Shown here piece by piece: positions 22,262-41,047 of a stretch of DNA of 41,393 nucleotides (position 1 is its first letter; every line of letters begins with the position of its first letter). Location of the stretch: the NCBI GenBank assembly GCA_028687045.1, contig JAQUAW010000009.1, forward strand, positions 1-41,393. Direction: 5' to 3'. The notes beneath the pieces were generated by a model. The model was not told the DNA's origin and did not search any database. It saw only the letters and a program-made list of their open reading frames with translations. A program made the translations under genes and the position numbers. Source of the DNA: Patescibacteria group bacterium (GTDB lineage Bacteria > Patescibacteriota > Patescibacteriia > Magasanikbacterales > UBA922).

Positions 22262-22351
22262 ATATTAAAGTAAGCTTGAAAGGCCTAAAAAGCTCAAAAG
22301 GCTTAAAAGGCTTTTTTGGCTTTTTAGGCATTTCAAGCCTTTCAGGCTTTT
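22262..22351. repeat. AAAGGCTT-word inverted repeat
   Basis: gcttgaaaggcctaaaaagc...gctttttaggcatttcaagcctttcaggc, related to 6469-6697. Confidence 0.65.
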
Positions 22352-22355
22352 TTTT

Positions 22356-22774
22356 CGTGGAGATGCCGGGAATTGAACCCGGGTCTAGATGGGTTATCTC
22401 CATATTCTACATGTGTAGCTAGGTTTGGTATTTCGTATGGTAGCTAGAAAACCAGCAAAACAACTACCAACTATTCTGGTTTATTGTCAATTGAAACGTT
22501 CAGAAAACCATTTCAATTTACGCTCGATGGGGGTTGACACCGCAGGCTTCAATATCGAGTATCTCGAAAAGCGATGGTAGATGAGCTTGTTTAAGCTACT
22601 ACAGATGCGAATGATGGCATACTGAAAGCGTTAGCTAGGCTAACAACAGCTGTTCTCACGCGACTTGCTAAGTTTGCACTTAGGAATTCTACGCCGGTAT
22701 TTACGAGGAAAGCGTAGCTCCTCGACATGCTTATGGAAGGTAACAAGATCCAACTATCGAATCCTGTCATCCCC
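22356..22774 (-). ncRNA. ssrA: transfer-messenger RNA (tmRNA)
   Basis: 5' GGGGATGACAGGATTCGATAG and 3' GACCCGGGTTCAATTCCCGGCATCTCCA; G3:U70 acceptor pair; adjacent to smpB; tag ORF at 22591-22677. Confidence 0.93.
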
Positions 22775-27813: not shown

Positions 27814-30800
27814 ATGAGGACTCGTGAACAACAATCTCCAGATTTGGGTGTATTTGAAAAAACCAAATTTGACCAATTTACAGCTGGTAAAAAAATTGTG
27901 GTAAATATAGATGGTGACTGGAAAGAAGTTACTTTGAGAGAAGAAGTAACCAAAGATGATGTAAAAAATGGTAAATTGAATTTGAAAATTTCTTATGAGA
28001 AAACTCCAGGAAACTCTGTTGATTTAGATTTGCCAGTAGAAGCTGAACCAAAAATAGTAAAATATCCAAATGGTTTGAATATTCAAGATGCAGATTATGG
28101 TGATTTTACTATTGAGACTTCTTATGTTACTGAAAATGGTAGTATAGAATATAATGTAAAAGATAATGATGAAAATAAAACAGAAGTAGGTGTAAGACAA
28201 GAAATTATAGATTTGTGGAGAAGTGTAAATGAGGCTAAACAAAATGTAGCTACTCTTGAGGCTAAAATTGGTAGGTTATCTGCACAAAAGAGATTGGAAT
28301 TTACTACCGAACTTCATAAAGCTAATAAATTTGTTACAGAAATTTTTGCTAGTTTGCCAGAAATAAATAAAATGAACAAACTTGATAATGATCAACTCAC
28401 AGCTTTGCAAGAAAAGTTAGCCGGTTTGATGAAAAAATCAGAGCAAGTATTGAAATCTTTGAGTGCTGATGTGGATTTGGTAATTAACAATACTGGTGCT
28501 ACACCAGCACCACCTGCCAGAGCTAGAAGATTTGAAGATTTTAGACATGATGATACTGAAAAAGATAAAGCAGTAAGAGAAAAAGAATTAACAAAAGATG
28601 CTAAAAATGCTGAAGCAATGAAGGAAGAGTTGGAACAAAAAATTGCAGAAGCGTATGAAGAAATAGATGATGAACGTGAGGGTGTTTTAGTCGATAGAAG
28701 AAAAACTGAAGAAGAAGCTTTTATGAGTGCTCATGCTGATGCTAATGGTAAATTACCAAAGGGTAGTAAAGGTTTCGATAAAGATAAAGTTAAACTAACC
28801 CCTGCAGAAGAAAAAGAATTTAAAAATAAAAAAGCCAAAGCTAAAAAAGAAATTTATAAAAATTTTTTTGAACGTTCTGGTCGTAGGAGTGAATTGCAAA
28901 AGAAGATTTTAGATGAAGTGACTAGATTGAGAATGGAAGCTGTTCAGATTGATTCAACAACTGAGGATAGTCAACTCAGAAAAGATAATGGTGTTGTCGT
29001 TGACTATGTCAAGCCAGCTGCCAGTTCTGATGACTATTTGGATTCAGTTTATCTAGCTAAAAATATAAAAATTCTAGATCAAGTATTGAAAAATATTATT
29101 GATAAAAAAGAATTAGGTGAGGAGACTGCAGAAAACAAAGAAGTCTTCGATTTCAGTTCAGAAGTAGAAAAATCGAAAACTAGAATGCAAGCTATGCTGG
29201 AGTCTATACCAAAAAAAGATGATGGTACACCAGAAGATTCTTTTGTTAGCGTATATAAGGCTTTGCAAAAGAGATTAGCAGATTTTGATAAAGATAGTAC
29301 AAGTCTTTCTAATAGGGATCTGGCTGTAAGAGAAGGTCTTTTACAAGCTAATGACTCAAAGGATGTTTTACAAAGAAATAGATTTGACTTGGTAAGTGAT
29401 AATAATAGAGAATTGGATGGTGATGCTAGAGACATACAAAAAATAAAAGCTGAAGAAGAAATCAAAAATATATCAAAAGAAACAGAGAATAGTATTCAAG
29501 AAAAAACTCCTGTCATAGATATGACAGAACCGATGATGCAAGAAATTTTGAAGTCAAACTTTTTGGTAGTTGAAGATGCTTTGACTAGTATGTTGACAGA
29601 AGGTTTGGATTATACCGATGTCAATGGTGTCACAGCTTTGAAACCAAAGATTTTGGAAAAATTCAAAAATCTTATTTCTGAAAATTCACCTAATCCAGCC
29701 TTACTCGCCAAATTGCGTGAAGCTGGTATCAAAAATTGGGCAGATTTCAAAAAACTTTGGGATGAAAAATTGGCAGGACAAGCAGCTGCTAGTGTGGACA
29801 AAATGTTGCAGGCTGTCATGAAAAAAGAAATTGCCAATAATATTAGTTGGTGGGATAAAACTAAGAAATTCAAAGGTCAGATTGCGGCTAGAATGGCTAT
29901 TACCACGGCCTTGGTTGGTGGTGCCGCTGTTGGTGCTAGTCTAGGTGTGGCTGCTCTTGGTGGAGCTGCTGCTATTGGAGTGGCTGCTGGTGGTACTGTT
30001 GGTGGTGGTATTAGAGGAGCTCTCAACAAATTACTTTTTGGTAATAAGAGAATGCAAGCTCGTAGTGAAAGATTACAAAAAGAATTGGAAGATAGTAAAA
30101 AGGGTGATGTTGTAAAAAATATTGTTGGTAAAGTTTTAGGGAGTCTAGATTCTACTATAGTTGCTTCTTCTAATATAAAAGAGTTGCCATCATTTTCTGC
30201 TATTCTTGCTCAAACTACTCGTGATTTGACCACAGAAATGTCTCAATTGTCTGAAGTCGCAGAAGTCACCGAAGCCAAAGATTTGCAAGGTAATGCTCGT
30301 GTTCTTTATGAAAGAGCTCTGGCTCATCTTGAAATAAAAGAAGAAGATGTAGAAAACAAAAGAAAACTTGCACAAATAATTTTTAAGATGAATGGTAAAG
30401 GTGACAGCAAAGCAGAATTATTGTCCAAAGATGATCCAAAAATTATGCGTCTTTTGGAAAGTGTTGTTTCAATTTATTCTGGCAAAACAGGTATTGTAGC
30501 TTCAGCTGCTATGGGTGGTATTGTAAGTTTGGCTTATTTGGCCGATAGTGAAATTACTAGAGCTTCTATGGGTGCTCTCTTTGGTGGTATCAAAGGCTAC
30601 AAAGAAGGTCGTGCTAGACAAGTAGAATCACAGCAAGCCAAAGCTAGAGGATCTATTTATACTGACATTTCAGATTTACGAGCTGTCAATCAAACAGCGT
30701 TTAGAGATCCTAGTTATTCTATTGATTCTTTGTCAGCAGAAAATAGAAAAGTTCTTCGTGACAAAGTTATTAGATTGAAAAGATTGGTACATATCAATGC

Positions 30801-32862
30801 TGAGCCAGCGGATTTGGCAGTCTTTGGAATTGTCAAAAAAGATGAAAAAGGTAATTATGTCGATTACAATGCTAATGTAATTATAGATAAGGATGGAAAA
30901 TTGGTAGATGCTGAAGCACGTATGCTCTTTATGGATATGCGTAGTGCTATCACTGATGCCGAACGTATTGGTTTGTTACATGAAAGACAAGAAGATAGAA
31001 AAAATATGGGTGTGGTACTCGAACAACTTCAAGCAAGAAGTAAAGAAATTGAAGAAGGTCTTCCAAAAGAAAGAAAAGGTCTCATGCGTACTTTTGGTAA
31101 TTGGTTGGCCAATAAAACTTATAGAAATAAGACATTTACTTATACTGTTGGTGGTGCGGTCTTGGGAGCGGCTAGTGCTTTACTTATTGGCGCAGCAGCC
31201 AAAGAAATCAAAGAAGGTATATTTGGTACTCCAGCTGGTGGTATGAATCCAGATAATCTGGGTGGCAAGGGAGCTAATGCTCTTGGTGAAAAAGCTGGTG
31301 TGGGTGCTGCAGCTGTGGCCAAAGCTGGTGAAAATGGTGGTGCTATCGCTGGATTGGACAATAATCATGCAGGTACTGCTAGTAATACAGGTGAATTACC
31401 TGCAGAATCTCCTAATAATCATGAAGGGTTACTAAATCCAGAAGTAGAATCAAAACCACAAATCTTTTCTCTAAAAGTTGGAAAAGGTGGTAGTGCTTGG
31501 GGTACATTGGATAGAACTCTTACTGACAAAGGTGCTCCAGCAGAATTCAAAGATTTGTTTGCTTCTGACAAAAAAGCTTTTGCTGCTTGGCGAGAACAAC
31601 AGCTAGAAGATATGGGTTACAAAAAAGTAAATGGACATATGGGACATCCTGTTACTATACACGAAGGTGCAGAGATGAAAGTTTACAAAGGTGAAGATGG
31701 TAATTGGCATGCGAGATTTGATGATAGTGTCACTGCCAAGTCTGCTGATGGTAGAGTTTATAATACTGTAGAAAGCAATAAGACTTTGCATTTTCAAGCT
31801 CCTGAAACCAAATCCAGTGCAGAAGATTGGCAAAATAATTATAAATTTTTCAATAAGGTACAACCAGCGGTGGAATCTGGTGACGCCAAAGTTTTGCATT
31901 CTCTAGTTACAGATACAAAATTAGGTCCAGTCATAAAGGAAATGGGTGGTATACCAAGTATCAGAGAAGTAACTTTTGATCCAAAGAGTGGGGAAGTAGC
32001 TTTGTCTATGTACAATCCACAAACTCATGAGGATCTAATATTACCAGTCCATCCACATGAGACAGACAATGGCTGGCAAATGTTGGATGTAGATAGGGGA
32101 TTGAAACCAAATCCTTATACAGAGGTTATGCATCCTGCCAATGATAATACTGCTTGGACTGTCAGTGACAAACCTGCTAATCCTGTTTTCTTCGATGAAA
32201 AAGAAGTTGCAAATCATCATGCTCAACCTAATGTTGAAGTAACTAATAATGCTACAAATCACGAAGCAGCCAATGATAATCAATTTGCAGATCATTCTAG
32301 TAAAACTGGTGATGCGAAAGATGTGGATGTACTTAGTGGATCAGAAAACACAGAGTTAGCCCAAGAATACAAAGACCAAATTGAGGAACTTGTGGGAGAA
32401 ATCAATCCAGATATTCATGATGGTGGTACTGGTTTAGTGTTGAGCGTAAGAGATAAATTGTTACACGAGATAGGTGCTGCCAATGACAATCAATTGCCAG
32501 CAGATTTGAAACATGAACTTGCTACTAATCCAGATGCTGCCAAAGAATATTTGCTTAAAAAATTAGATCCAGATGAAAAGTTGTTATTTGAGGATGTTGG
32601 TCAGGGTACTACCAAACTTGAAGGTGCAAGTGATGTGTTGATAGGTGAGGATGGTCTAGCTGTAAAAATGCAATTGGAAGATGGCAGTGAATATATATTC
32701 CATCCACCTAAAGGTTGGAAACAGTTTGATGATGTAGATGGTGTTCTTTATCTTAAAAATGGTGACTTACATAGTCCTGTGGAGATACATAATGAAGAGG
32801 GGGTTTATCATATCAGGCCACTAGATCAGGCTGGAAATGGAAAAATAGCCAAAGCAGCCTAG
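27814..32862 (+). CDS. giant coiled-coil protein with several Gly/Ala-rich hydrophobic hairpins
   Basis: 1682-aa ORF; ITTALVGGAAVGASLGVAALGGAAAIGVAAGGTVGG and YTVGGAVLGAASALLIGAA segments. Confidence 0.8.
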   Translation: MRTREQQSPDLGVFEKTKFDQFTAGKKIVVNIDGDWKEVTLREEVTKDDVKNGKLNLKISYEKTPGNSVDLDLPVEAEPKIVKYPNGLNIQDADYGDFTIETSYVTENGSIEYNVKDNDENKTEVGVRQEIIDLWRSVNEAKQNVATLEAKIGRLSAQKRLEFTTELHKANKFVTEIFASLPEINKMNKLDNDQLTALQEKLAGLMKKSEQVLKSLSADVDLVINNTGATPAPPARARRFEDFRHDDTEKDKAVREKELTKDAKNAEAMKEELEQKIAEAYEEIDDEREGVLVDRRKTEEEAFMSAHADANGKLPKGSKGFDKDKVKLTPAEEKEFKNKKAKAKKEIYKNFFERSGRRSELQKKILDEVTRLRMEAVQIDSTTEDSQLRKDNGVVVDYVKPAASSDDYLDSVYLAKNIKILDQVLKNIIDKKELGEETAENKEVFDFSSEVEKSKTRMQAMLESIPKKDDGTPEDSFVSVYKALQKRLADFDKDSTSLSNRDLAVREGLLQANDSKDVLQRNRFDLVSDNNRELDGDARDIQKIKAEEEIKNISKETENSIQEKTPVIDMTEPMMQEILKSNFLVVEDALTSMLTEGLDYTDVNGVTALKPKILEKFKNLISENSPNPALLAKLREAGIKNWADFKKLWDEKLAGQAAASVDKMLQAVMKKEIANNISWWDKTKKFKGQIAARMAITTALVGGAAVGASLGVAALGGAAAIGVAAGGTVGGGIRGALNKLLFGNKRMQARSERLQKELEDSKKGDVVKNIVGKVLGSLDSTIVASSNIKELPSFSAILAQTTRDLTTEMSQLSEVAEVTEAKDLQGNARVLYERALAHLEIKEEDVENKRKLAQIIFKMNGKGDSKAELLSKDDPKIMRLLESVVSIYSGKTGIVASAAMGGIVSLAYLADSEITRASMGALFGGIKGYKEGRARQVESQQAKARGSIYTDISDLRAVNQTAFRDPSYSIDSLSAENRKVLRDKVIRLKRLVHINAEPADLAVFGIVKKDEKGNYVDYNANVIIDKDGKLVDAEARMLFMDMRSAITDAERIGLLHERQEDRKNMGVVLEQLQARSKEIEEGLPKERKGLMRTFGNWLANKTYRNKTFTYTVGGAVLGAASALLIGAAAKEIKEGIFGTPAGGMNPDNLGGKGANALGEKAGVGAAAVAKAGENGGAIAGLDNNHAGTASNTGELPAESPNNHEGLLNPEVESKPQIFSLKVGKGGSAWGTLDRTLTDKGAPAEFKDLFASDKKAFAAWREQQLEDMGYKKVNGHMGHPVTIHEGAEMKVYKGEDGNWHARFDDSVTAKSADGRVYNTVESNKTLHFQAPETKSSAEDWQNNYKFFNKVQPAVESGDAKVLHSLVTDTKLGPVIKEMGGIPSIREVTFDPKSGEVALSMYNPQTHEDLILPVHPHETDNGWQMLDVDRGLKPNPYTEVMHPANDNTAWTVSDKPANPVFFDEKEVANHHAQPNVEVTNNATNHEAANDNQFADHSSKTGDAKDVDVLSGSENTELAQEYKDQIEELVGEINPDIHDGGTGLVLSVRDKLLHEIGAANDNQLPADLKHELATNPDAAKEYLLKKLDPDEKLLFEDVGQGTTKLEGASDVLIGEDGLAVKMQLEDGSEYIFHPPKGWKQFDDVDGVLYLKNGDLHSPVEIHNEEGVYHIRPLDQAGNGKIAKAA

Positions 32863-32935: not shown

Positions 32936-32964
32936 TTGACAAAATGTTCAAAATGTGTTATACT
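32936..32964 (+). promoter_or_regulatory. promoter P1
   Basis: TTGACA-N17-TATACT. Confidence 0.75.
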
Positions 32965-33206: not shown

Positions 33207-33235
33207 TTGACAAAATGGTCAAAATATGCTATACT
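33207..33235 (+). promoter_or_regulatory. promoter P2
   Basis: TTGACA-N17-TATACT; near-identical to P1 including TTGACAAAATG. Confidence 0.75.
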
Positions 33236-33404
33236 ATCCCGTTCATTAATAATGAGAATAAAAAATGGTTTTTGTCTTCTGAGAAGCTATTGGGAAGAGG
33301 TTCCTGCTACTTTCTCAGCTGATAAGCTGAAATATTTTATTTTCTGACACTTAGGTGTCGAAGGTAAATACTTTCTTTACAATTCACCAGTACTACTTAT
33401 ATGT

Positions 33405-33459
33405 TTCCCTCGGTTATATGTGTGAGAAGATTATTTCTTATCTATATAACCGACGGGAA
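33405..33459 (+). promoter_or_regulatory. leader hairpin U1 (55 nt)
   Basis: TTCCCTCGGTTATAT / ATATAACCGACGGGAA; apical GGTTATATGTGTGAGAA. Confidence 0.65.
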
Positions 33460-33572
33460 CATCTGCAAGGAAACTTCCATCGGTCACCAGCCCCACCCGG
33501 GCGGGTGGCACGGTGGTTAGGCTACCATTCTTTTCTTCGACAACGGCATAACCTTCTTCGGGAGAAATTTTC

Positions 33573-34376
33573 GTGAACAAGCGCAATATCATCACCGGTC
33601 TCGTCGTGCTCGCGCTCGTGGTCATCGGTGTCTACTTCTTCTACGACTTCGTCACGGGAGTCCAGAAGGGGCAGGCCGAGACCAACGAGAAGATCGGCGC
33701 GATCAACACCGCGATCTTCGGCGTCGACGTGCAGAAGAAGGACGACAAGGGCAACCTCCTCTTCTACAAGAAGGATGGTTCCCCCGTCATGGAGCACATC
33801 CCTGGGGCGATCGAGGACTTCGACTCGCGGATCAAGACGAACGCGACGAACATCACGACGAACAAGACCGCGATCGAAGCGCAGGACAAGAAGTTCAGCT
33901 CGCAGGACGAGACTCTCGAGACCAACGTCAAGGTCCTTCAGGATCGTATGAAGGCGCTTGATGAGGCCGCAGACCGCTACCGCAATAACAAGGGCGGTCG
34001 CGTCACGGTCCTCGAGACTCGTGTCAGCGCTTGGGCTCGCAGGGCCAAGAAGGCCGAGGCGAAGCTCGCCGAGGCCGAGACCAAGCTCGACGGGACCGTC
34101 GTTCGCGTCGTCAACCTCGAGGATCAGGTGGCAATTCTGGCCACCACCCCCGATGAGCCGGCCTTCGAGAACTTCGATGACAACGCGACGACCACCACCA
34201 CGACGGACGAGCCGGCCCCTGCGCCGACTCCGACCGAAGAGGCCCCCGTGCCTGCTGGTCCTCCGGCTCCTGTGCCGACGCCGACCGAAGAGGTGGTTCC
34301 CACGCCGATGCCGGTCTCCGATGCCTCCCCGCCGATCGTGGGGCACATCGAGCAGGTCAGCGACGGCGACAAGTAG
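33573..34376 (+). CDS. GC-rich gene 1: N-terminal TM, coiled coil, Pro/Thr-rich C-terminus (GTG start)
   Basis: MNKRNIITGLVVLALVVIGVYFFYDFVTG; GC-rich third codon positions. Confidence 0.8.
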   Translation: MNKRNIITGLVVLALVVIGVYFFYDFVTGVQKGQAETNEKIGAINTAIFGVDVQKKDDKGNLLFYKKDGSPVMEHIPGAIEDFDSRIKTNATNITTNKTAIEAQDKKFSSQDETLETNVKVLQDRMKALDEAADRYRNNKGGRVTVLETRVSAWARRAKKAEAKLAEAETKLDGTVVRVVNLEDQVAILATTPDEPAFENFDDNATTTTTTDEPAPAPTPTEEAPVPAGPPAPVPTPTEEVVPTPMPVSDASPPIVGHIEQVSDGDK

Positions 34377-34377
34377 T

Positions 34378-34454
34378 ACTGGTGTTCCCTGGGGAGACGC
34401 AGACGGTGAGCGGAGTTTTACTCCGCCCACCAGACGCGTCCCCCAGGAACCAGT
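34378..34454 (+). ncRNA. 3' structured element D1
   Basis: ACTGGTGTTCCCTGGGGAGACGC / GCGTCCCCCAGGAACCAGT with inner GCGGAGTtttACTCCGC. Confidence 0.65.
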
Positions 34455-34494
34455 CATATATGTAGGTGTAAATAACACGTACATAGATGATTGG
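34450..34494 (+). ncRNA. second hairpin after D1, sharing its CCAGT arm
   Basis: CCAGTCAT / ATGATTGG and ATGTA-GTGT / ACAC-TACAT. Confidence 0.55.
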
Positions 34495-34536
34495 TACTAG
34501 ATATCAATATGCACATTACAATACACCAGTACGATA

Positions 34537-34591
34537 TTTCCGTAGGTTATATGTGTGAGAAAAATATTCTTGCATAGATAACCTACGGAAA
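34537..34591 (+). promoter_or_regulatory. leader hairpin U2 (55 nt)
   Basis: TTTCCGTAGGTTAT / ATAACCTACGGAAA perfect 14-bp stem; same apical GGTTATATGTGTGAGAA. Confidence 0.7.
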
Positions 34592-34712
34592 ACCCCCGTA
34601 TGGTACCCCCTCCAACCTGGCTTACCCCAAGGAAAGGGGGAGCTTAAACGGGGGTTGTCGAGAACAACTGTCTTTTCCCACTCAACGTCAACTCAGATTT
34701 CGAGGTGAATTC

Positions 34713-35423
34713 ATGAACTGCCAATGTGGACATCAGAACGTCACGGCCGGTCAGCCCTGCCCCCAGTGCGGGACGACCAACCTCCAGGTCCAGCAGCAGG
34801 TCCGTTTCCAGGCCCCCCCGGCGATCACCTACCAGCCGGTCCAGGGGCAGCAGCCCCCCGCCGCGGCCCAGCAGCAGACGACCCGTCGCTTCAGCTGGCT
34901 CGGGCTCATCGGTACCATCCTAGGAGCATTGGCGCTCCTGTTCTTCATCATCTTCGTCCCCATCGCCCTGTCTCGCAGTGGCGACAACGAGGACAAGATC
35001 GCGGCGAACACGACAAGCCTGATGACGCACGACGCGGCGATCGCGGCCAACACCGCGCATCTGAGGGTGATCCTCCCGGCCTTCGCGCCGGGTGGTATCA
35101 TCGATACGATGAACAACGGGATCGCCAAGAACTCGACCGACATCGCGGCGAACACGACCGACCTGGTCGACGCCGGGAAGGCCTACGACAAGCTCGAGAA
35201 GCGCGTCGACAAGCACGACACCCGTCTGACCAAGGTCGAAGGCGACGTCGCGTCGCTTGACGCCAAGGTCCGTCGCGTGTCGACTCGAGTCTCCAACTAC
35301 CAGGCGGAGGCGACGAAGGAGCACGCACGGCTCGGTAGCGAGTCGGCGGCGAACAAGGCAGCGCTCGACGCGATCTGGGCCGAGCTCTCAGAGCCGGTTG
35401 GATCCATCGAGCGCATCGACTGA
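34713..35423 (+). CDS. GC-rich gene 2: N-terminal zinc ribbon, TM, C-terminal coiled coil
   Basis: CQCGHQNVTAGQPCPQCG; LGLIGTILGALALLFFIIFVPIAL; SD GAGGTGAA. Confidence 0.8.
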   Translation: MNCQCGHQNVTAGQPCPQCGTTNLQVQQQVRFQAPPAITYQPVQGQQPPAAAQQQTTRRFSWLGLIGTILGALALLFFIIFVPIALSRSGDNEDKIAANTTSLMTHDAAIAANTAHLRVILPAFAPGGIIDTMNNGIAKNSTDIAANTTDLVDAGKAYDKLEKRVDKHDTRLTKVEGDVASLDAKVRRVSTRVSNYQAEATKEHARLGSESAANKAALDAIWAELSEPVGSIERID

Positions 35424-35429
35424 CATCGT

Positions 35430-35507
35430 ACTGGTGTTCCCTGGGAAACGTATATGGTACGCGAAGTTCTACTTCGCAAACCTAACACGTTCCCAGGGGG
35501 TGCCAGT
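35430..35507 (+). ncRNA. 3' structured element D2
   Basis: ACTGGTGTTCCCTGGGAAACGT / ACGTTCCCAGGGGGTGCCAGT with inner GCGAAGTtctACTTCGC. Confidence 0.7.
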
Positions 35508-35546
35508 CTCATACTTATTTACTTTTGTAAGTAGGTAGGAGACTGG
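35503..35546 (+). ncRNA. second hairpin after D2, sharing its CCAGT arm
   Basis: CCAGTCTC / GAGACTGG perfect 8-bp stem. Confidence 0.6.
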
Positions 35547-35562
35547 TAGTATTTATTTGTAG

Positions 35563-35600
35563 CACATCTTAGTGAGTGAAATATCACATACTGAGATGTG
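35563..35600 (+). ncRNA. additional intergenic hairpin
   Basis: CACATCTTAGT / ACTGAGATGTG. Confidence 0.55.
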
Positions 35601-35694
35601 TCACAAATGATACAACTGTTCATTACAATTAATATAACAAAAAAATATTTAGTGCTTGATGCTCATATATTTTCATTTTTCTGTTTTATACCAC

Positions 35695-35749
35695 GTGTGG
35701 TTAGGATATTTGTGTACGAAGTTTTCGTGCATATATACCCTTGCCACAC
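35695..35749 (+). promoter_or_regulatory. leader hairpin U3 (55 nt, weaker)
   Basis: GTGTGG / CCACAC outer stem, inner ACGAAgttTTCGT; GGTTA...TTTGTGT. Confidence 0.4.
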
Positions 35750-35841
35750 TAGCTGCCCCGTTCGGGGTGAAAACCCGCAGGGCGGGGTGGTTCAAGGATG
35801 GCAACAACGCCAACTTCGACAACAGACAGGAGAATGAGATC

Positions 35842-36654
35842 ATGCGCACGAGCGTGGTCGTGATGATGGCAGCCCTCTCCCTGGGGCTGTTCGGAGCGAC
35901 AACGGAGGCGAAAGCTTCCGAGGGGACGTGGTCGGAGCATTATGCTCTCGACTGCGCGAATGACGGGTCCGTCGAGGACTCGATCGAGGTCACTTGCCAC
36001 GAGGTTGGCGAGGTGGTGAAGCTGCGGGCTACTTGTCCGCGGGGGATCTTCTTCGTCAGCTACCGTTGCGAGGGTCTGAAGGTCGAGGCCGAGATGGAGA
36101 CTGTGCCGAAGGCAGAGACGGTTCCTCCGTCCTGCCCCGAGCAGCCCAAGACTACCACGAAGAACGAGGACTGGTTCGACTACCAGCTCGGCCTTCACAC
36201 CAGCGGCCTGATGGTCGCCGGAGATCTGCCGAACGCGTTCTACGCGGGCGGCGAGTTCTCCGCCCAGCTGAAGCTGGGTGGCAAGTGGTGGCTCACGACG
36301 GCTCTCGGCCTGGGCTACGCCCGGGTCGGCGACAGCGACAACCTCGCACTCACCGAGAGCGTCGGGCTCCAGTACCGCCTCAACACGGACTGGTACCTGG
36401 GGCTCGTCGCGCGCCACTACGTGGTGCTCGACGGTGGTGGCGACGTACTTCAGGCGGTCCTGCCTAGCCTGGAGATCGTGTACAACATCAACCAAGATCT
36501 CCAGGCCGTCCTCATGGGCGGCGCGGGCTGGGGGCACTACCGAGTGCAGAATCGTGTTTCGGCAGCGTCATCAGTGGCGCCGGACGAGTACGAGACGGGC
36601 ACTCGGGACGACCTCACCGGCATGCTGGGGGCGAGCCTGCGGGCACGCTTCTAG
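35842..36654 (+). CDS. GC-rich gene 3: signal peptide plus predicted outer-membrane-type beta-barrel
   Basis: MRTSVVVMMAALSLGLFGATTEAKA; alternating aromatic strands (FYAGGEFSAQLKLGGKWWLTTALGLGYARVGD...). Confidence 0.75.
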   Translation: MRTSVVVMMAALSLGLFGATTEAKASEGTWSEHYALDCANDGSVEDSIEVTCHEVGEVVKLRATCPRGIFFVSYRCEGLKVEAEMETVPKAETVPPSCPEQPKTTTKNEDWFDYQLGLHTSGLMVAGDLPNAFYAGGEFSAQLKLGGKWWLTTALGLGYARVGDSDNLALTESVGLQYRLNTDWYLGLVARHYVVLDGGGDVLQAVLPSLEIVYNINQDLQAVLMGGAGWGHYRVQNRVSAASSVAPDEYETGTRDDLTGMLGASLRARF

Positions 36655-36762
36655 CATCGGAGAGACGGGGTGAAGGCTAACACCTCGGCAAAAAAAATAG
36701 GCCAACGTTCGATTCCAGCGAGAGTTCTTTCGTTTTTTTCTCAGATGGAGATTTCTCAACTC

Positions 36763-38505
36763 ATGAAGACCCAGAAGTTCAACATCGTGGCCTTGGCGCT
36801 CTTCGCCATGGCCTTCTCGGCCGTGGGCGCCTCGTGCGTCGATGGCCAGGGTAACAACATCCCCGCGCAGAAGAGCGCGGGGCTCAACGCCGATGGGACC
36901 GGCCACGCGGACAACTGCGAGGCCAAGTTCAACCCGCCCTCCGTCGACCTCGGCGTCTCGTGCGTCGACTTCACCGACTGCCTCGACGTCGCGCCGACGC
37001 TCAAGTCGGGGGCTCCGGCTCCCGTGTTCTGCGTCCAGCAGAGCGATGTGGATGACTTCGGTTGGGATCAGGATCTGGTGGGCAGCTGTGCCGCCCAGGC
37101 CGATCTTGATGGAGACGGCGCGGGCGACGAGTGCGATGATGACGACGACGGCGATCTGATCGCCGACATCGACGACAACTGCCCGACGGTGCCCAACCAC
37201 GACCAGGCCGACAGCGACGACGACGGCGTGGGGGACGCCTGCCAGGACAGCGACGACGACGGCATCCTCGACATCGACGACAACTGCCCGGACGTCGCCA
37301 ACCACGACCAGGTGGACAGCGACGAGAACGGCATCGGTGACGCATGCGAAGACACCGACAACGACGGCATTCTCAACGTCGACGACAACTGTCCGACGAT
37401 CCCGAACGCGGATCAGGCTGACAGTGACGACGACGGCGTGGGGGACGTCTGCCAGGACACCGACGAGGACGGCATCCTCGACATCGACGACAACTGCCCG
37501 CTGGACTTCAACCCCGGCCAGCTCGACGCCGACGAGGACGGCATGGGCGACGCCTGCGATGACGACATCGACGGCGATGAGATCCTGAACGATGATGACA
37601 ACTGCCCGCTGGTCGCCAACCACGGCCAGCTCGACGCCGACGAGGACGGCATGGGCGACGCCTGCGATGACGACATCGACGGCGATGAGATCCTGAACGA
37701 TGATGACAACTGCCCGCTGGACTTCAACCCCGACCAGCTCGACGCCGACGAGGACGGCATGGGCGACGCCTGCGATGACGACATCGACGGCGATGAGATC
37801 CTGAACGATGATGACAACTGCCCGGAGATCCCGAACGCGGACCAGGCGGATCTCGACAACGACGGAATCGGGGACGTCTGTGACCCCGACTGTGACGGTG
37901 ACGGGGTCGAGGCCCCGTGCAACTACGACGCCGACGGTGACGGCTACAGCCCTCCCGCCGACTGCATGGAGGGTGAGGCCAGCGTCCATCCGGGCGCGAC
38001 CGAGCTCTGCAACGGCGTGGATGACGACTGCGACGGCGTGACCGACGAGGGCTGCCCGACGACGCCCGAGTGCACGACCGCCGCCGACTGCGACGACAAC
38101 AACCCGAGCACGAGCGACACCTGCGTCGACGGCGAGTGCGTGAACACGCAGCTCCCGCCCGCGGGCACGTGCGAGGTCGACGACGACTGCCTGGACAGCG
38201 AGGTCTGCATCGCCGGGACCTGCCGTACCAAGGCGCAGCCCGGGCAGTGCTCTCCCTTCGCCATCGAGGTGATCGGGGGCGAGCAGGACACCTACCTCGA
38301 GTGGTACTCGGCCACCAGCCCAGCGCCCACGCGCAACGGCCGGGTCGAGGACGGGACGTACCAGTCGCAGAACGGGGAGTGCTCCGTGGCGGCCTTCGAC
38401 TTTTCGGTCGACGGCTGCTACTGCCACACCGCGTTCGGAACGTCCCCCTGCGCCCAGCTCCCCAATTCGCCTGGGGTCTGGGGCTGCAGGCACAACCAGC
38501 AGTAG
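36763..38505 (+). CDS. GC-rich gene 4: secreted Ca-binding protein with thrombospondin type-3-like repeats and MopE-like Cys/Asp motifs
   Basis: DxDxDGxxDxxDNCP repeats; DADGDGYSPPADC...ELCNGVDDDCDGVTDEGC. Confidence 0.9.
   Translation: MKTQKFNIVALALFAMAFSAVGASCVDGQGNNIPAQKSAGLNADGTGHADNCEAKFNPPSVDLGVSCVDFTDCLDVAPTLKSGAPAPVFCVQQSDVDDFGWDQDLVGSCAAQADLDGDGAGDECDDDDDGDLIADIDDNCPTVPNHDQADSDDDGVGDACQDSDDDGILDIDDNCPDVANHDQVDSDENGIGDACEDTDNDGILNVDDNCPTIPNADQADSDDDGVGDVCQDTDEDGILDIDDNCPLDFNPGQLDADEDGMGDACDDDIDGDEILNDDDNCPLVANHGQLDADEDGMGDACDDDIDGDEILNDDDNCPLDFNPDQLDADEDGMGDACDDDIDGDEILNDDDNCPEIPNADQADLDNDGIGDVCDPDCDGDGVEAPCNYDADGDGYSPPADCMEGEASVHPGATELCNGVDDDCDGVTDEGCPTTPECTTAADCDDNNPSTSDTCVDGECVNTQLPPAGTCEVDDDCLDSEVCIAGTCRTKAQPGQCSPFAIEVIGGEQDTYLEWYSATSPAPTRNGRVEDGTYQSQNGECSVAAFDFSVDGCYCHTAFGTSPCAQLPNSPGVWGCRHNQQ
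37519..37830 (+). repeat. three near-identical 108-bp (36-aa) tandem repeats within gene 4
   Basis: cagctcgacgccgacgaggacggcatgggcgacgcctgcgatgacgacatcgacggcgatgagatcctgaacgatgatgacaactgcccg starting at 37519, 37627, 37735. Confidence 0.9.
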
Positions 38506-38754: not shown

Positions 38755-38804
38755 CACAACCTTTCTTCTTTAGACACTGATTACATTGATTAATAAAAGA
38801 TTAC

Positions 38805-38848
38805 ACTGATGTGATACTGATGTGATACTGATGTGATACTGATGTGAT
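38805..38848. repeat. 4 x 11-bp tandem repeat ACTGATGTGAT
   Basis: direct reading. Confidence 0.95.
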
Positions 38849-38920
38849 TGAGTGGTTAGAGGGTAGAGGTGATGAAAATAAAAGAAATCTCCATTTAATT
38901 TGGGGATTTTTTATTTATGT

Positions 38921-39113
38921 AAAATAATATTTTTTAATATTCGATTAATATTTTACGAATATTACGAAAGATATTATTACAAATATTATTGCGAATATTG
39001 AACGATGGTGGTTTTTAATATTCGTTTCATATTTGTTTCATATTTGGAAAATATTATCGAGTATATTATGACAGATATTAGACGAATATTATTGCGAATA
39101 TTTACAGATATTT
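38921..39113. repeat. phased ATATT array
   Basis: homologous to 40802-40992, both following an agaaatctcc...ggggatttttt terminator. Confidence 0.7.
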
Positions 39114-39139
39114 CATGTGGTATAGTAAACGTTGTCCAC

Positions 39140-39168
39140 TTGACAAAAGGCTTAAAAAATGGTATTCT
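39140..39168 (+). promoter_or_regulatory. promoter of predicted sRNA
   Basis: TTGACA-N17-TATTCT. Confidence 0.6.
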
Positions 39169-39174
39169 CTAATC

Positions 39175-39250
39175 AAAGGATAGTAAACCGTATAACTACG
39201 GGTTAACCATCTTCGCATATAAAATTCCGTTTAATACCGGAATTTTATTT
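39175..39250 (+). ncRNA. predicted small RNA with complementarity to the adjacent tRNA; ends in an intrinsic terminator
   Basis: promoter at 39140-39168; terminator AAAATTCCG tttaatac CGGAATTTT (39221-39246). Confidence 0.5.
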
Positions 39251-39290
39251 ATGTCAAATTTTGTGTTATAATTGTTGCCGGTGGACTAAA

Positions 39291-39364
39291 GGGCTCGTAG
39301 TTTAACGGTAAAATACTATCCTGCGAAGATGGGGTTGCGGGTTCGATTCCCGTCGAGTCCACCA
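39291..39364 (+). tRNA. tRNA with anticodon GCG (reads CGC/CGU, nominally Arg), encoded CCA
   Basis: GGGCTCG/CGAGTCC acceptor, CTATC-CTGCGAA-GATGG anticodon arm, GCGGG-TTCGATT-CCCGT T-arm. Confidence 0.85.
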
Positions 39365-39401
39365 CTAAAAGACTTCACTTATTTTTTAGTGGAGTTTTTT
39401 T
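39362..39401 (+). terminator. terminator of tRNA transcript
   Basis: CCACTAAAA...TTTTAGTGG then T-run. Confidence 0.7.
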
Positions 39402-39449
39402 GTTGTGATAAAATATCTGATCTATCTACCTGTTTTGCGAGGAGAAAAT

Positions 39450-39690
39450 AGATTATCAAATTACTAAATTATTACATTATTATTTTTTTATAAAGAATTA
39501 TTTAACAAATTAATTTTTGGAAAGACTTAAAACATTTTAAAAAGTTCCCTTCCCTCGTAGGGAAGGGGCAGGGTAGGGTCTTAACGGGATATTGTATATA
39601 AAATAGTTTTTATTTTTAACATTGACTGAGACCTCTCCCTGACCCTCTCCTACCAGGAGAGGGAACTTACAAAAAAAATTATATTTAAGT
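39450..39690. repeat. MITE-like element, second copy of the 19336-19655 family
   Basis: agttcccttccctcgtagggaaggggcagggtagggtcttaacgggatattg ... gagacctctccctgaccctctcctaccaggagagggaac. Confidence 0.65.
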
Positions 39691-39860
39691 TTTAGGGCTT
39701 ATTTATTTGCTAGTTAAACCATAAAAAACAACTATATATTATTTTAGTTATTAATATTATTGCTTCTATACATTTATTTTATATCTGCTATAATTTATTT
39801 AGTAAGGCTGCTTGTGTCACATTGCACTTGTGTTTTGTTTTTTTTAAATAAAATAATGTT

Positions 39861-39905
39861 TTTTAATATTCCGTTAATATTTGTTTCATATTTGATAAAT
39901 ATTTT
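39861..39905. repeat. short phased ATATT array
   Basis: tttaatattccgttaatatttgtttcatatttgataaatatt. Confidence 0.5.
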
Positions 39906-39991
39906 TGTTAACTTTGTACAACGATATATGTCTAGTAGATTTTTTATAAGAATGTTATAATTAAATTAGATTATTTTTTTAAATTATAAAT

Positions 39992-40747
39992 ATGGATAAA
40001 GTAGAATTATCACCGAGAGATAAATTGTTACAATTGCATGACTTAACTCCTGCAGAGAATAGAGAGCTAGTAGAGAAATTAGAAAATGCTTTGCAATCAG
40101 CCGGACAAGAATTTTCTCTAGATTATCTGCAAGCTGGAGAAATAAATATTGGCAATAAGATGATCAGATTTTCTTTTATGTTGAGTGGCGAAAGAGAAAA
40201 TAAAAATTGGCAAGAATATCTGTCCGAAGATTTGGCTGAGAGTATTGTGAGATCTTTGGAGAGAATCAAAAAAAGTAGTAATGATGAATTGTTTGTCGAT
40301 GAGATTGTCGTGACTGATGTCAATTTTGCTAATCCGCGTAGTGGTAAACCAGTCAATGGTGTGACTTTGACCAATATGGAAAATACCAGTCAAAATAGTA
40401 TTGTACTTTTTGTCAATGCTTTGTCTGATACAAATTATCGTGGAGAAATACCAGGTGTTTCACATTTGGAAGGAACTGTTACTCATGAATATGGTCATTG
40501 CTTGGACAATGCTTCTGGTGCAGATTTGCGTAAGATGTGGGTAGAGAGATTACCTTGGCAATATGACGAAGAGAGTGATACTTTTTCTTATAATGGCGAA
40601 CAACAAGATTTTGTGACCACTTATGCTGGTGTAAGTCCAACAGAAGACTTGGCGGAATCTTATGCCATTTATTTGCTGGATAAAGAACGTCTGGCTCGAG
40701 TAAGTCAGAAAAGGAAAGCATTTTTTGAAGCATTACTTGGTTCTTAA
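39992..40747 (+). CDS. putative zinc metallopeptidase-fold protein
   Basis: GTVTHEYGHCLDNASG motif and downstream EDLAESYAIYLLD. Confidence 0.7.
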   Translation: MDKVELSPRDKLLQLHDLTPAENRELVEKLENALQSAGQEFSLDYLQAGEINIGNKMIRFSFMLSGERENKNWQEYLSEDLAESIVRSLERIKKSSNDELFVDEIVVTDVNFANPRSGKPVNGVTLTNMENTSQNSIVLFVNALSDTNYRGEIPGVSHLEGTVTHEYGHCLDNASGADLRKMWVERLPWQYDEESDTFSYNGEQQDFVTTYAGVSPTEDLAESYAIYLLDKERLARVSQKRKAFFEALLGS

Positions 40748-40801
40748 TTTAAAAAATTATATAGAAATCTCCAGAAGTTGGGGATTTTTTGATTTATGTA
40801 A

Positions 40802-40992
40802 AATAATATTTGGTTAATATTTGGAAAATATTATCGCGTATATTATGACAGATATTAGACGAATATTATTATAAATATTACAACAAATATTATTGCGAAT
40901 ATTGAACAATGATGTTGATTAATATTTGTTTCATATTTGGTAAATATTATTTCAGATATTAGACGAATATTGACAGATATTAACAAATATTA
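40802..40992. repeat. phased ATATT array
   Basis: aatatttggttaatatttggaaaatattatcgcgtatattatgacagatattagacgaatatt... Confidence 0.7.
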
Positions 40993-41047
40993 CTTTATCA
41001 AAAACGCAGTTGTCTAAACAATGAAAATATGATAATATTTAAGCACT

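Follow-up and report, generated by a model that had tools for sequence, protein, structure and literature searches.

The four-gene operon g1-g4 (33573-38505), located on the 41,393-nt contig JAQUAW010000009.1 (the window) of assembly GCA_028687045.1, carries a long imperfect hairpin in front of each of its first three genes, and these hairpins were termed U1, U2 and U3. They were noticed in a preliminary description of the window, which saw only a part of the arrangement: the U hairpins belong to a larger repeated module. In both the g1-g2 and the g2-g3 spacers, the stop codon is followed by hairpin A, hairpin B (joined by an extra hairpin, C2, in the second spacer), the motif TTACAAT, the U hairpin, a GC-rich hairpin V, the ribosome-binding site and the next start codon. 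With a probability of roughly 0.5, the U hairpins would serve, within this module, as RNase III-type processing hairpins accompanied by protective caps, which together isolate each cistron. Besides hairpins A and B and the TTACAAT motif, the preliminary description had missed a long-range stem (P1), an attenuator-like leader, the composition of the genes and the structure of their coding RNA.

The window corresponds to contig C18 of the source genome (G000; 1.15 Mb, 95.6% complete), which belongs to an AT-rich, ultra-small member of Candidatus Magasanikbacteria. The genomic GC content at third codon positions (GC3) is about 0.21 and that of the genes neighbouring the operon 0.21-0.26, whereas g1-g4, which are genes for surface proteins, reach 0.84-0.91. 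All features are collected in Table 1.

Hairpins of the intercistronic module

The three U hairpins fold as previously claimed, their distances to the start codons (113, 121 and 92 nt) were reproduced, and a second C/G-rich hairpin indeed stands between each of them and its gene. The 17-mer GGTTATATGTGTGAGAA common to U1 and U2 (33412-33428 and 34545-34561) was also recovered, and it has no further occurrence in the 1.15-Mb genome even at 2 mismatches. Nevertheless, the 17-mer is not apical, as had been stated, but constitutes the 5' strand of the upper stem, and the notion of divergent stems on a conserved loop is incorrect, because U1 and U2 resemble each other from end to end while their loops differ (GATTAT versus AAATA). 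A sequence-conserved loop on covarying stems, the hallmark of a riboswitch or protein-binding leader, was accordingly not found. What is conserved is the shape and the position, namely TTACAAT, a duplex of 22-29 bp with isolated 1x1 mismatches and a GC-rich hairpin, rather than the loop sequence, which points to a duplex recognised by its shape, such as an RNase III-type substrate, and not to a ligand- or loop-binding element. In agreement with the earlier impression that no known family is involved, a search of the island against Rfam gave nothing at gathering thresholds and, with E relaxed to 1, only matches at chance level.

The proposal that U is a selected RNA was upheld, although the reason offered for it, divergent stems on a conserved loop that would imply a loop-binding site or riboregulator, fails. 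U1 and U2 are paralogous copies; among their 24 pairs, one is changed in a compensatory manner on both sides and three are changed on one side only, while two cells do not pair, and owing to this weak covariation the case for selection drawn from the two copies alone is weak. It becomes good through the enrichment of such hairpins, the same-shaped hairpins of relatives and the covariation of hairpins A and B. Nine hairpins of at least 18 pairs with only 1x1 mismatches are present in the window, six of them within 33398-35749, as compared with 0-2 per window in whole-window shuffles; hairpins of this kind also occur at matching places in relatives (three in locus L051 and two in L053). The hairpins occupying the U place in relatives share the shape and position but differ in sequence, and eight compensatory pairs were counted across three relatives' loci. 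A DNA pattern derived from the relatives' U hairpin matched three records, all from Candidatus Magasanikbacteria.

Within the module, the support is strongest for hairpins A and B. Hairpin A is GC-rich and contains an inner helix, and hairpin B forms 21-25 bp interrupted only by 1x1 mismatches. Among the 40 pairs compared between the two spacers, all 80 of 80 cells are paired, none is broken and ten pairs are compensatory with both sides changed, which is a much stronger covariation than that between U1 and U2; none of 500 shuffles matched it, and slid versions were only 33-43% paired. Neither A nor B is followed by a T-tract, as an intrinsic terminator would be, and a plus-strand terminator scan made no call at U1-U3, A or B, its minor calls being at 33315 (in the leader) and 33512.

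Table 1. Coordinates of the operon genes and RNA elements in the window
Feature	Position	Strand	Remarks
Sigma-70-type promoter, first copy	32936..32964	+	TTGACA-17-TATACT; promoter scan
Sigma-70-type promoter, second copy	33207..33235	+	TTGACA-17-TATACT; promoter scan; likely operon promoter
Attenuator-like leader	33277..33345	+	hairpin CTGAGAA..TTCTCAG overlaps terminator-like TCAGCTGATAAGCTGA and T-rich tail
TTACAAT motif 1	33377..33383	+	context TTTCTTTACAAT; relatives have GTTCTTTACAAT
P1 5' arm, unit 1	33385..33398	+	CACCAGTACTACTT
U1 hairpin	33398..33465	+	core 33405-33459; 29 pairs, three 1x1 mismatches
V1 GC-rich hairpin before g1	33469..33516	+	approximate ends
g1	33573..34376	+	N-terminal membrane segment and coiled coil (membrane-anchored); GC3 0.85
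P1 3' arm, unit 1	34371..34384	+	AAGTAGTACTGGTG; contains g1 stop codon
Hairpin A1, after g1	34388..34447	+	outer and inner stem
Hairpin B1	34449..34495	+	long stem with 1x1 mismatches
TTACAAT motif 2	34516..34522	+	
P1 5' arm, unit 2	34524..34535	+	CACCAGTACGAT
U2 hairpin	34537..34591	+	24 pairs
V2 GC-rich hairpin before g2	34591..34656	+	
g2	34713..35423	+	zinc ribbon, membrane segment and coiled coil; GC3 0.87
P1 3' arm, unit 2	35425..35436	+	ATCGTACTGGTG; directly 3' of g2 stop codon
Hairpin A2	35440..35498	+	
Hairpin B2	35502..35547	+	
C2	35553..35610	+	extra long hairpin with 1x1 mismatches
TTACAAT motif 3	35623..35629	+	unit 3; no P1 found
U3 hairpin	35695..35749	+	23 pairs, 1x1 mismatches
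V3 GC-rich hairpin before g3	35752..35790	+	
g3	35842..36654	+	signal peptide and probable beta-barrel; GC3 0.84
g4	36763..38505	+	lipoprotein-like, eight thrombospondin type 3 repeats; GC3 0.91

The long-range stem P1

In the units of g1 and g2, the sequence behind TTACAAT pairs with the stop-codon region about 1 kb away to form P1, a stem of 12-14 bp. The arms of the two units share nine bases together with a variable part that is changed on both sides, which implies that P1 is more than a repeat. An equivalent stem of unrelated sequence was found at locus L039 from another family of the order, where TTACAAT is followed by AGATGGAAAAACTACTT, which pairs with AAGTAGTTTTCGCCATCT at the stop codon. 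The duplex energies are -26.0, -23.3 and -21.6 kcal/mol for unit 1, unit 2 and L039, respectively, and no window along the unit was better in any of them (0/452, 0/433 and 0/133), with 300 shuffled arms being worse as well. Partition-function folding assigned P1 a pair probability near 1 in units 1 and 2, which for unit 1 persisted inside a 2.4-kb stretch of the operon, and of 0.79-0.88 in L039. In addition, GTACTGGTG, which lies after g1 and g2 (34376-34459 and 35428-35509), can pair with two partners, the distant P1 arm or, locally, the CCAGT behind hairpin A, and this alternative pairing is a possible switch.

Retention of the locus in relatives

At locus L051 (genome G057, contig C123), an AT-rich gene homologous to window positions 27814-32862 (E 8e-12) is followed by a TTGACA promoter, an attenuator-like leader, GTTCTTTACAAT, a U hairpin and a g2 homologue, and then again by GTTCTTTACAAT, a U hairpin, a barrel-like gene that aligns with g3 at 28% identity, and a lipoprotein-like gene with cysteine repeats. 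As the genes follow the AT-rich homologue in the order seen in the window, a retained locus is more likely than a fresh insertion. When the g2 profile was searched across 381 genomes of the class, strong matches were obtained only in the window and in genome G059.

Proposed mechanism and alternative explanations

On the basis of the above arrangement, the polycistronic transcript would start at the tandem TTGACA/TATACT promoters, the two copies of which are 80% identical over 45 nt. The gene-adjoining hairpins, A after the stop codon and V before the ribosome-binding site, are GC-rich and may act as stable caps, between which B, C2 and U would provide two-turn duplexes with isolated 1x1 mismatches. 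U1-U3, B1, B2 and C2 are near-continuous duplexes of 21-29 bp lying between cistrons, which fits RNase III substrates in size (about 20 bp or more) and in shape, and the host genome encodes an RNase III (TIGR02191, 223.5 bits, contig C33). Cuts at B/C2 and at U would release single-gene messages capped by V on the 5' side and by A on the 3' side, and the two caps could protect these messages against exonucleases. In the units of g1, g2 and the L039 gene, a ribosome arriving at the stop codon would have to open P1, and the overlap of P1 with the stop codon suggests that the stem could couple processing or decay to translation.

Several points weigh against this processing scheme. The covariation between U1 and U2 is weak, that of A and B is derived from a pair of paralogous copies, and an A/B covariance model recovered only these two source copies (together with their complementary strands and chance matches) and none outside the window. 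The RNase III assignment is drawn from size, shape and position. Moreover, P1 was present in three of the six units tested (units 1 and 2 of the window and L039); under the sliding-window and shuffled-arm test it was not found in unit 3 of the window or in the second unit of L051 and was marginal in the first unit of L051, and it is thus variable and not obligatory. Finally, TTACAAT as a -10 element could make some of the spacers promoters rather than processing sites, and the hairpins could act in antitermination.

The former of these two possibilities is the main alternative, which we regard as tenable though clearly disfavoured: each gene would possess an internal promoter with TTACAAT as its -10 element, transcripts would start near the P1 5' arm, and P1 together with the U duplex would stabilise monocistronic messages that are never cut. 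In every unit, TTACAAT stands directly 5' of the P1 arm or a hairpin, the form (G/T)TTCTTTACAAT is kept across two families of the order, a start 6-7 nt 3' of TACAAT would land in the P1 arm, and the pairing probability of P1 is about 1. Nevertheless, no consistent -35 box is visible by eye upstream of TTACAAT, and the promoter scan lists a single candidate with TACAAT as its end, a weak one (35600-35629, 9/12), as opposed to the true-looking TTGACA/TATACT upstream of the operon. Separately, CACCAGTAC was considered as a genome-wide element and rejected, since most of its matches look like ordinary coding sequence.

It is unlikely that the hairpins control antitermination or elongation in the manner of put or LoaP, assisting RNA polymerase to cross structured GC-rich genes in an AT-rich genome. 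This idea accounts for the attenuator-like leader, which may function as its name implies and lies 5' of the operon in all four loci read (those of L039, L040 and L051 having the same design as that of the window, with GAGAGAG/CTCTCTC versus CTCTC..GAGAG-TTTTTT), and for the two hairpins before each gene, but it does not account for their presence before every cistron with equally strong ones 3' of genes, and it leaves P1 at the stop codon unexplained. More improbable still is an explanation at the DNA level, in which the genes are mobile cassettes from a recent GC-rich donor, bounded by inverted repeats akin to transposon ends or attC sites. Inverted repeats of 14 bp do flank g1 and g2, the gene composition looks foreign, and the thrombospondin and MtsC-like matches resemble myxobacterial proteins. 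Against it, another family has the same position and gene order behind a homologous AT-rich gene, and the arms co-vary and differ between units instead of keeping a fixed end sequence, on which grounds an integron or transposon was rejected; in g2, g3, the C8 gene and the L051 barrel gene (but not in the C13 and L039 genes), the excess of RNA structure described below is larger on the sense strand. Furthermore, searches for relatives found none among phage DNA records or, at the protein level, among viral contigs, and plasmid DNA records gave a single short match, to a Halorussus plasmid, inside g4.

Comparison with known systems

The RNase III sites among the early genes of phage T7 (R1.1 type) are hairpins of about 50-60 nt, spanning some two helical turns with internal mismatches, which lie between cistrons. 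The processing hairpins proposed here likewise are two-turn mismatched hairpins between the cistrons of a polycistronic mRNA, whereas they differ in occurring as two sets per spacer (B/C2 and U), in being accompanied by GC-rich caps and a long-range stem, and in belonging to a chromosomal operon of a candidate-phylum bacterium, for which cleavage is inferred. In bacterial pre-rRNA, processing stems are formed by paired ends that enclose kilobase-scale RNA. P1 similarly pairs the two ends of a kilobase-scale RNA, yet it encloses a protein-coding cistron, measures 12-14 bp and has a 3' arm that overlaps or abuts the stop codon. Like repetitive extragenic palindromic (REP) sequences, bacterial interspersed mosaic elements (BIME) and other stabilising 3' hairpins, the post-stop hairpin A could protect a 3' end, but it is not dispersed, being confined to this operon among the loci searched, and it has a 5' counterpart in V.

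No description of such a system was found in the literature searched, and the operon looks like an undescribed way to cut, separate and protect individual messages. If this is true, a bacterium with a reduced genome isolates each cistron of one operon by paired processing and protective hairpins, and in several cases links both ends of a message to each other at its stop codon.

Coding RNA and GC-rich genes of the order

The structure of the coding RNA was expressed as z relative to shuffles that keep the protein and the codon usage. Strong values were obtained for g3 (-5.5 to -7), g2 (-3.8 to -4.5), the L051 barrel gene (-4.5) and the L039 gene (about -3.5), whereas 16 Cupriavidus genes of similar GC content gave -0.43 +/- 0.78 (lowest -1.49). 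The 24 control open reading frames from these genomes gave -0.46 +/- 1.66; they were chosen by composition alone, and one of them, 'AT W 8' (69% GC), is probably a spurious frame. Unexceptional values were obtained for g1 (about -2), for g4 (-0.1 to -1.8) and for a further seven GC3-rich genes (+0.9 to -2.3), which indicates that strong coding-RNA structure is a property of some genes only; the generalisation to all GC-rich genes was rejected, as the seven others average near -0.8. The coding RNA that exceeds synonymous shuffles, as in g3, is reminiscent of the globally ordered genome RNA of RNA viruses, with the differences that these are DNA-encoded bacterial genes and that the trait is not present in all of them (g4 and several GC3-rich genes lying near 0 to -2).

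Two stand-alone GC-rich genes of the source genome, on contigs C8 (2050-2500, minus strand; L011) and C13 (428-1033, minus strand; L013), also have strongly structured coding RNA (z about -4.3 and -3.4, respectively). Their products are a lipoprotein-like protein and a barrel-like protein with a GxxYxF-type C-terminus, and, across the order, eight other genomes have the barrel-like protein and a single one has the lipoprotein. The C13 gene has almost the same leader in G000 and G037, although the identity of the proteins is only 44%. Runs of 29 consecutive GC-ending third positions were detected in 70 of 83 genomes of the order, the genomes examined being AT-rich. Omp85/BamA had no match in the 83 genomes of the order, as compared with matches in 7 of 14 controls, which raises the question of why an order in which no Omp85 was found keeps barrel-like, GC-rich and strongly folded messages. 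A highly speculative answer, to which we give very little credence, is that the messages, being GC-rich, folded in their coding RNA well beyond synonymous shuffles, capped by hairpins and in some units joined at their ends, are made to be exceptionally compact and durable, and that the barrel- and lipoprotein-like products may serve inside or on a diderm, GC-rich host of the symbiont, because a cell devoid of the Omp85/BamA pathway should be unable to place such products in an outer membrane.

As for the operon products, g3 probably encodes a beta-barrel: its structure prediction, of low confidence (predicted local distance difference test, pLDDT, 40), contains antiparallel strands, which hint at a barrel and prove nothing. 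The start codon of g4 is likely the ATG at 36763.

In another family of the order, loci L100 and L101 (and L098 and L102) carry GC3-rich genes with their own promoter and terminator, and the 3' hairpins of L100 and L101 have a common GCAAAACACGC motif. At L103 (2394-3041, minus-strand coordinates), the C-terminus encoded by a GC-rich gene resembles the variable domain of a diversity-generating-retroelement target.

Other observations in the window

A hairpin of 30 pairs with three 1x1 mismatches (22272-22340) adjoins the transfer-messenger RNA gene (22355-22774, minus strand) and is perhaps the terminator of that gene. Short tandem repeats resembling GATGTGATACT lie 3' of the operon at 38770-38870, and many dispersed copies of an AATATT-rich motif occur further downstream, at 39000-41000.

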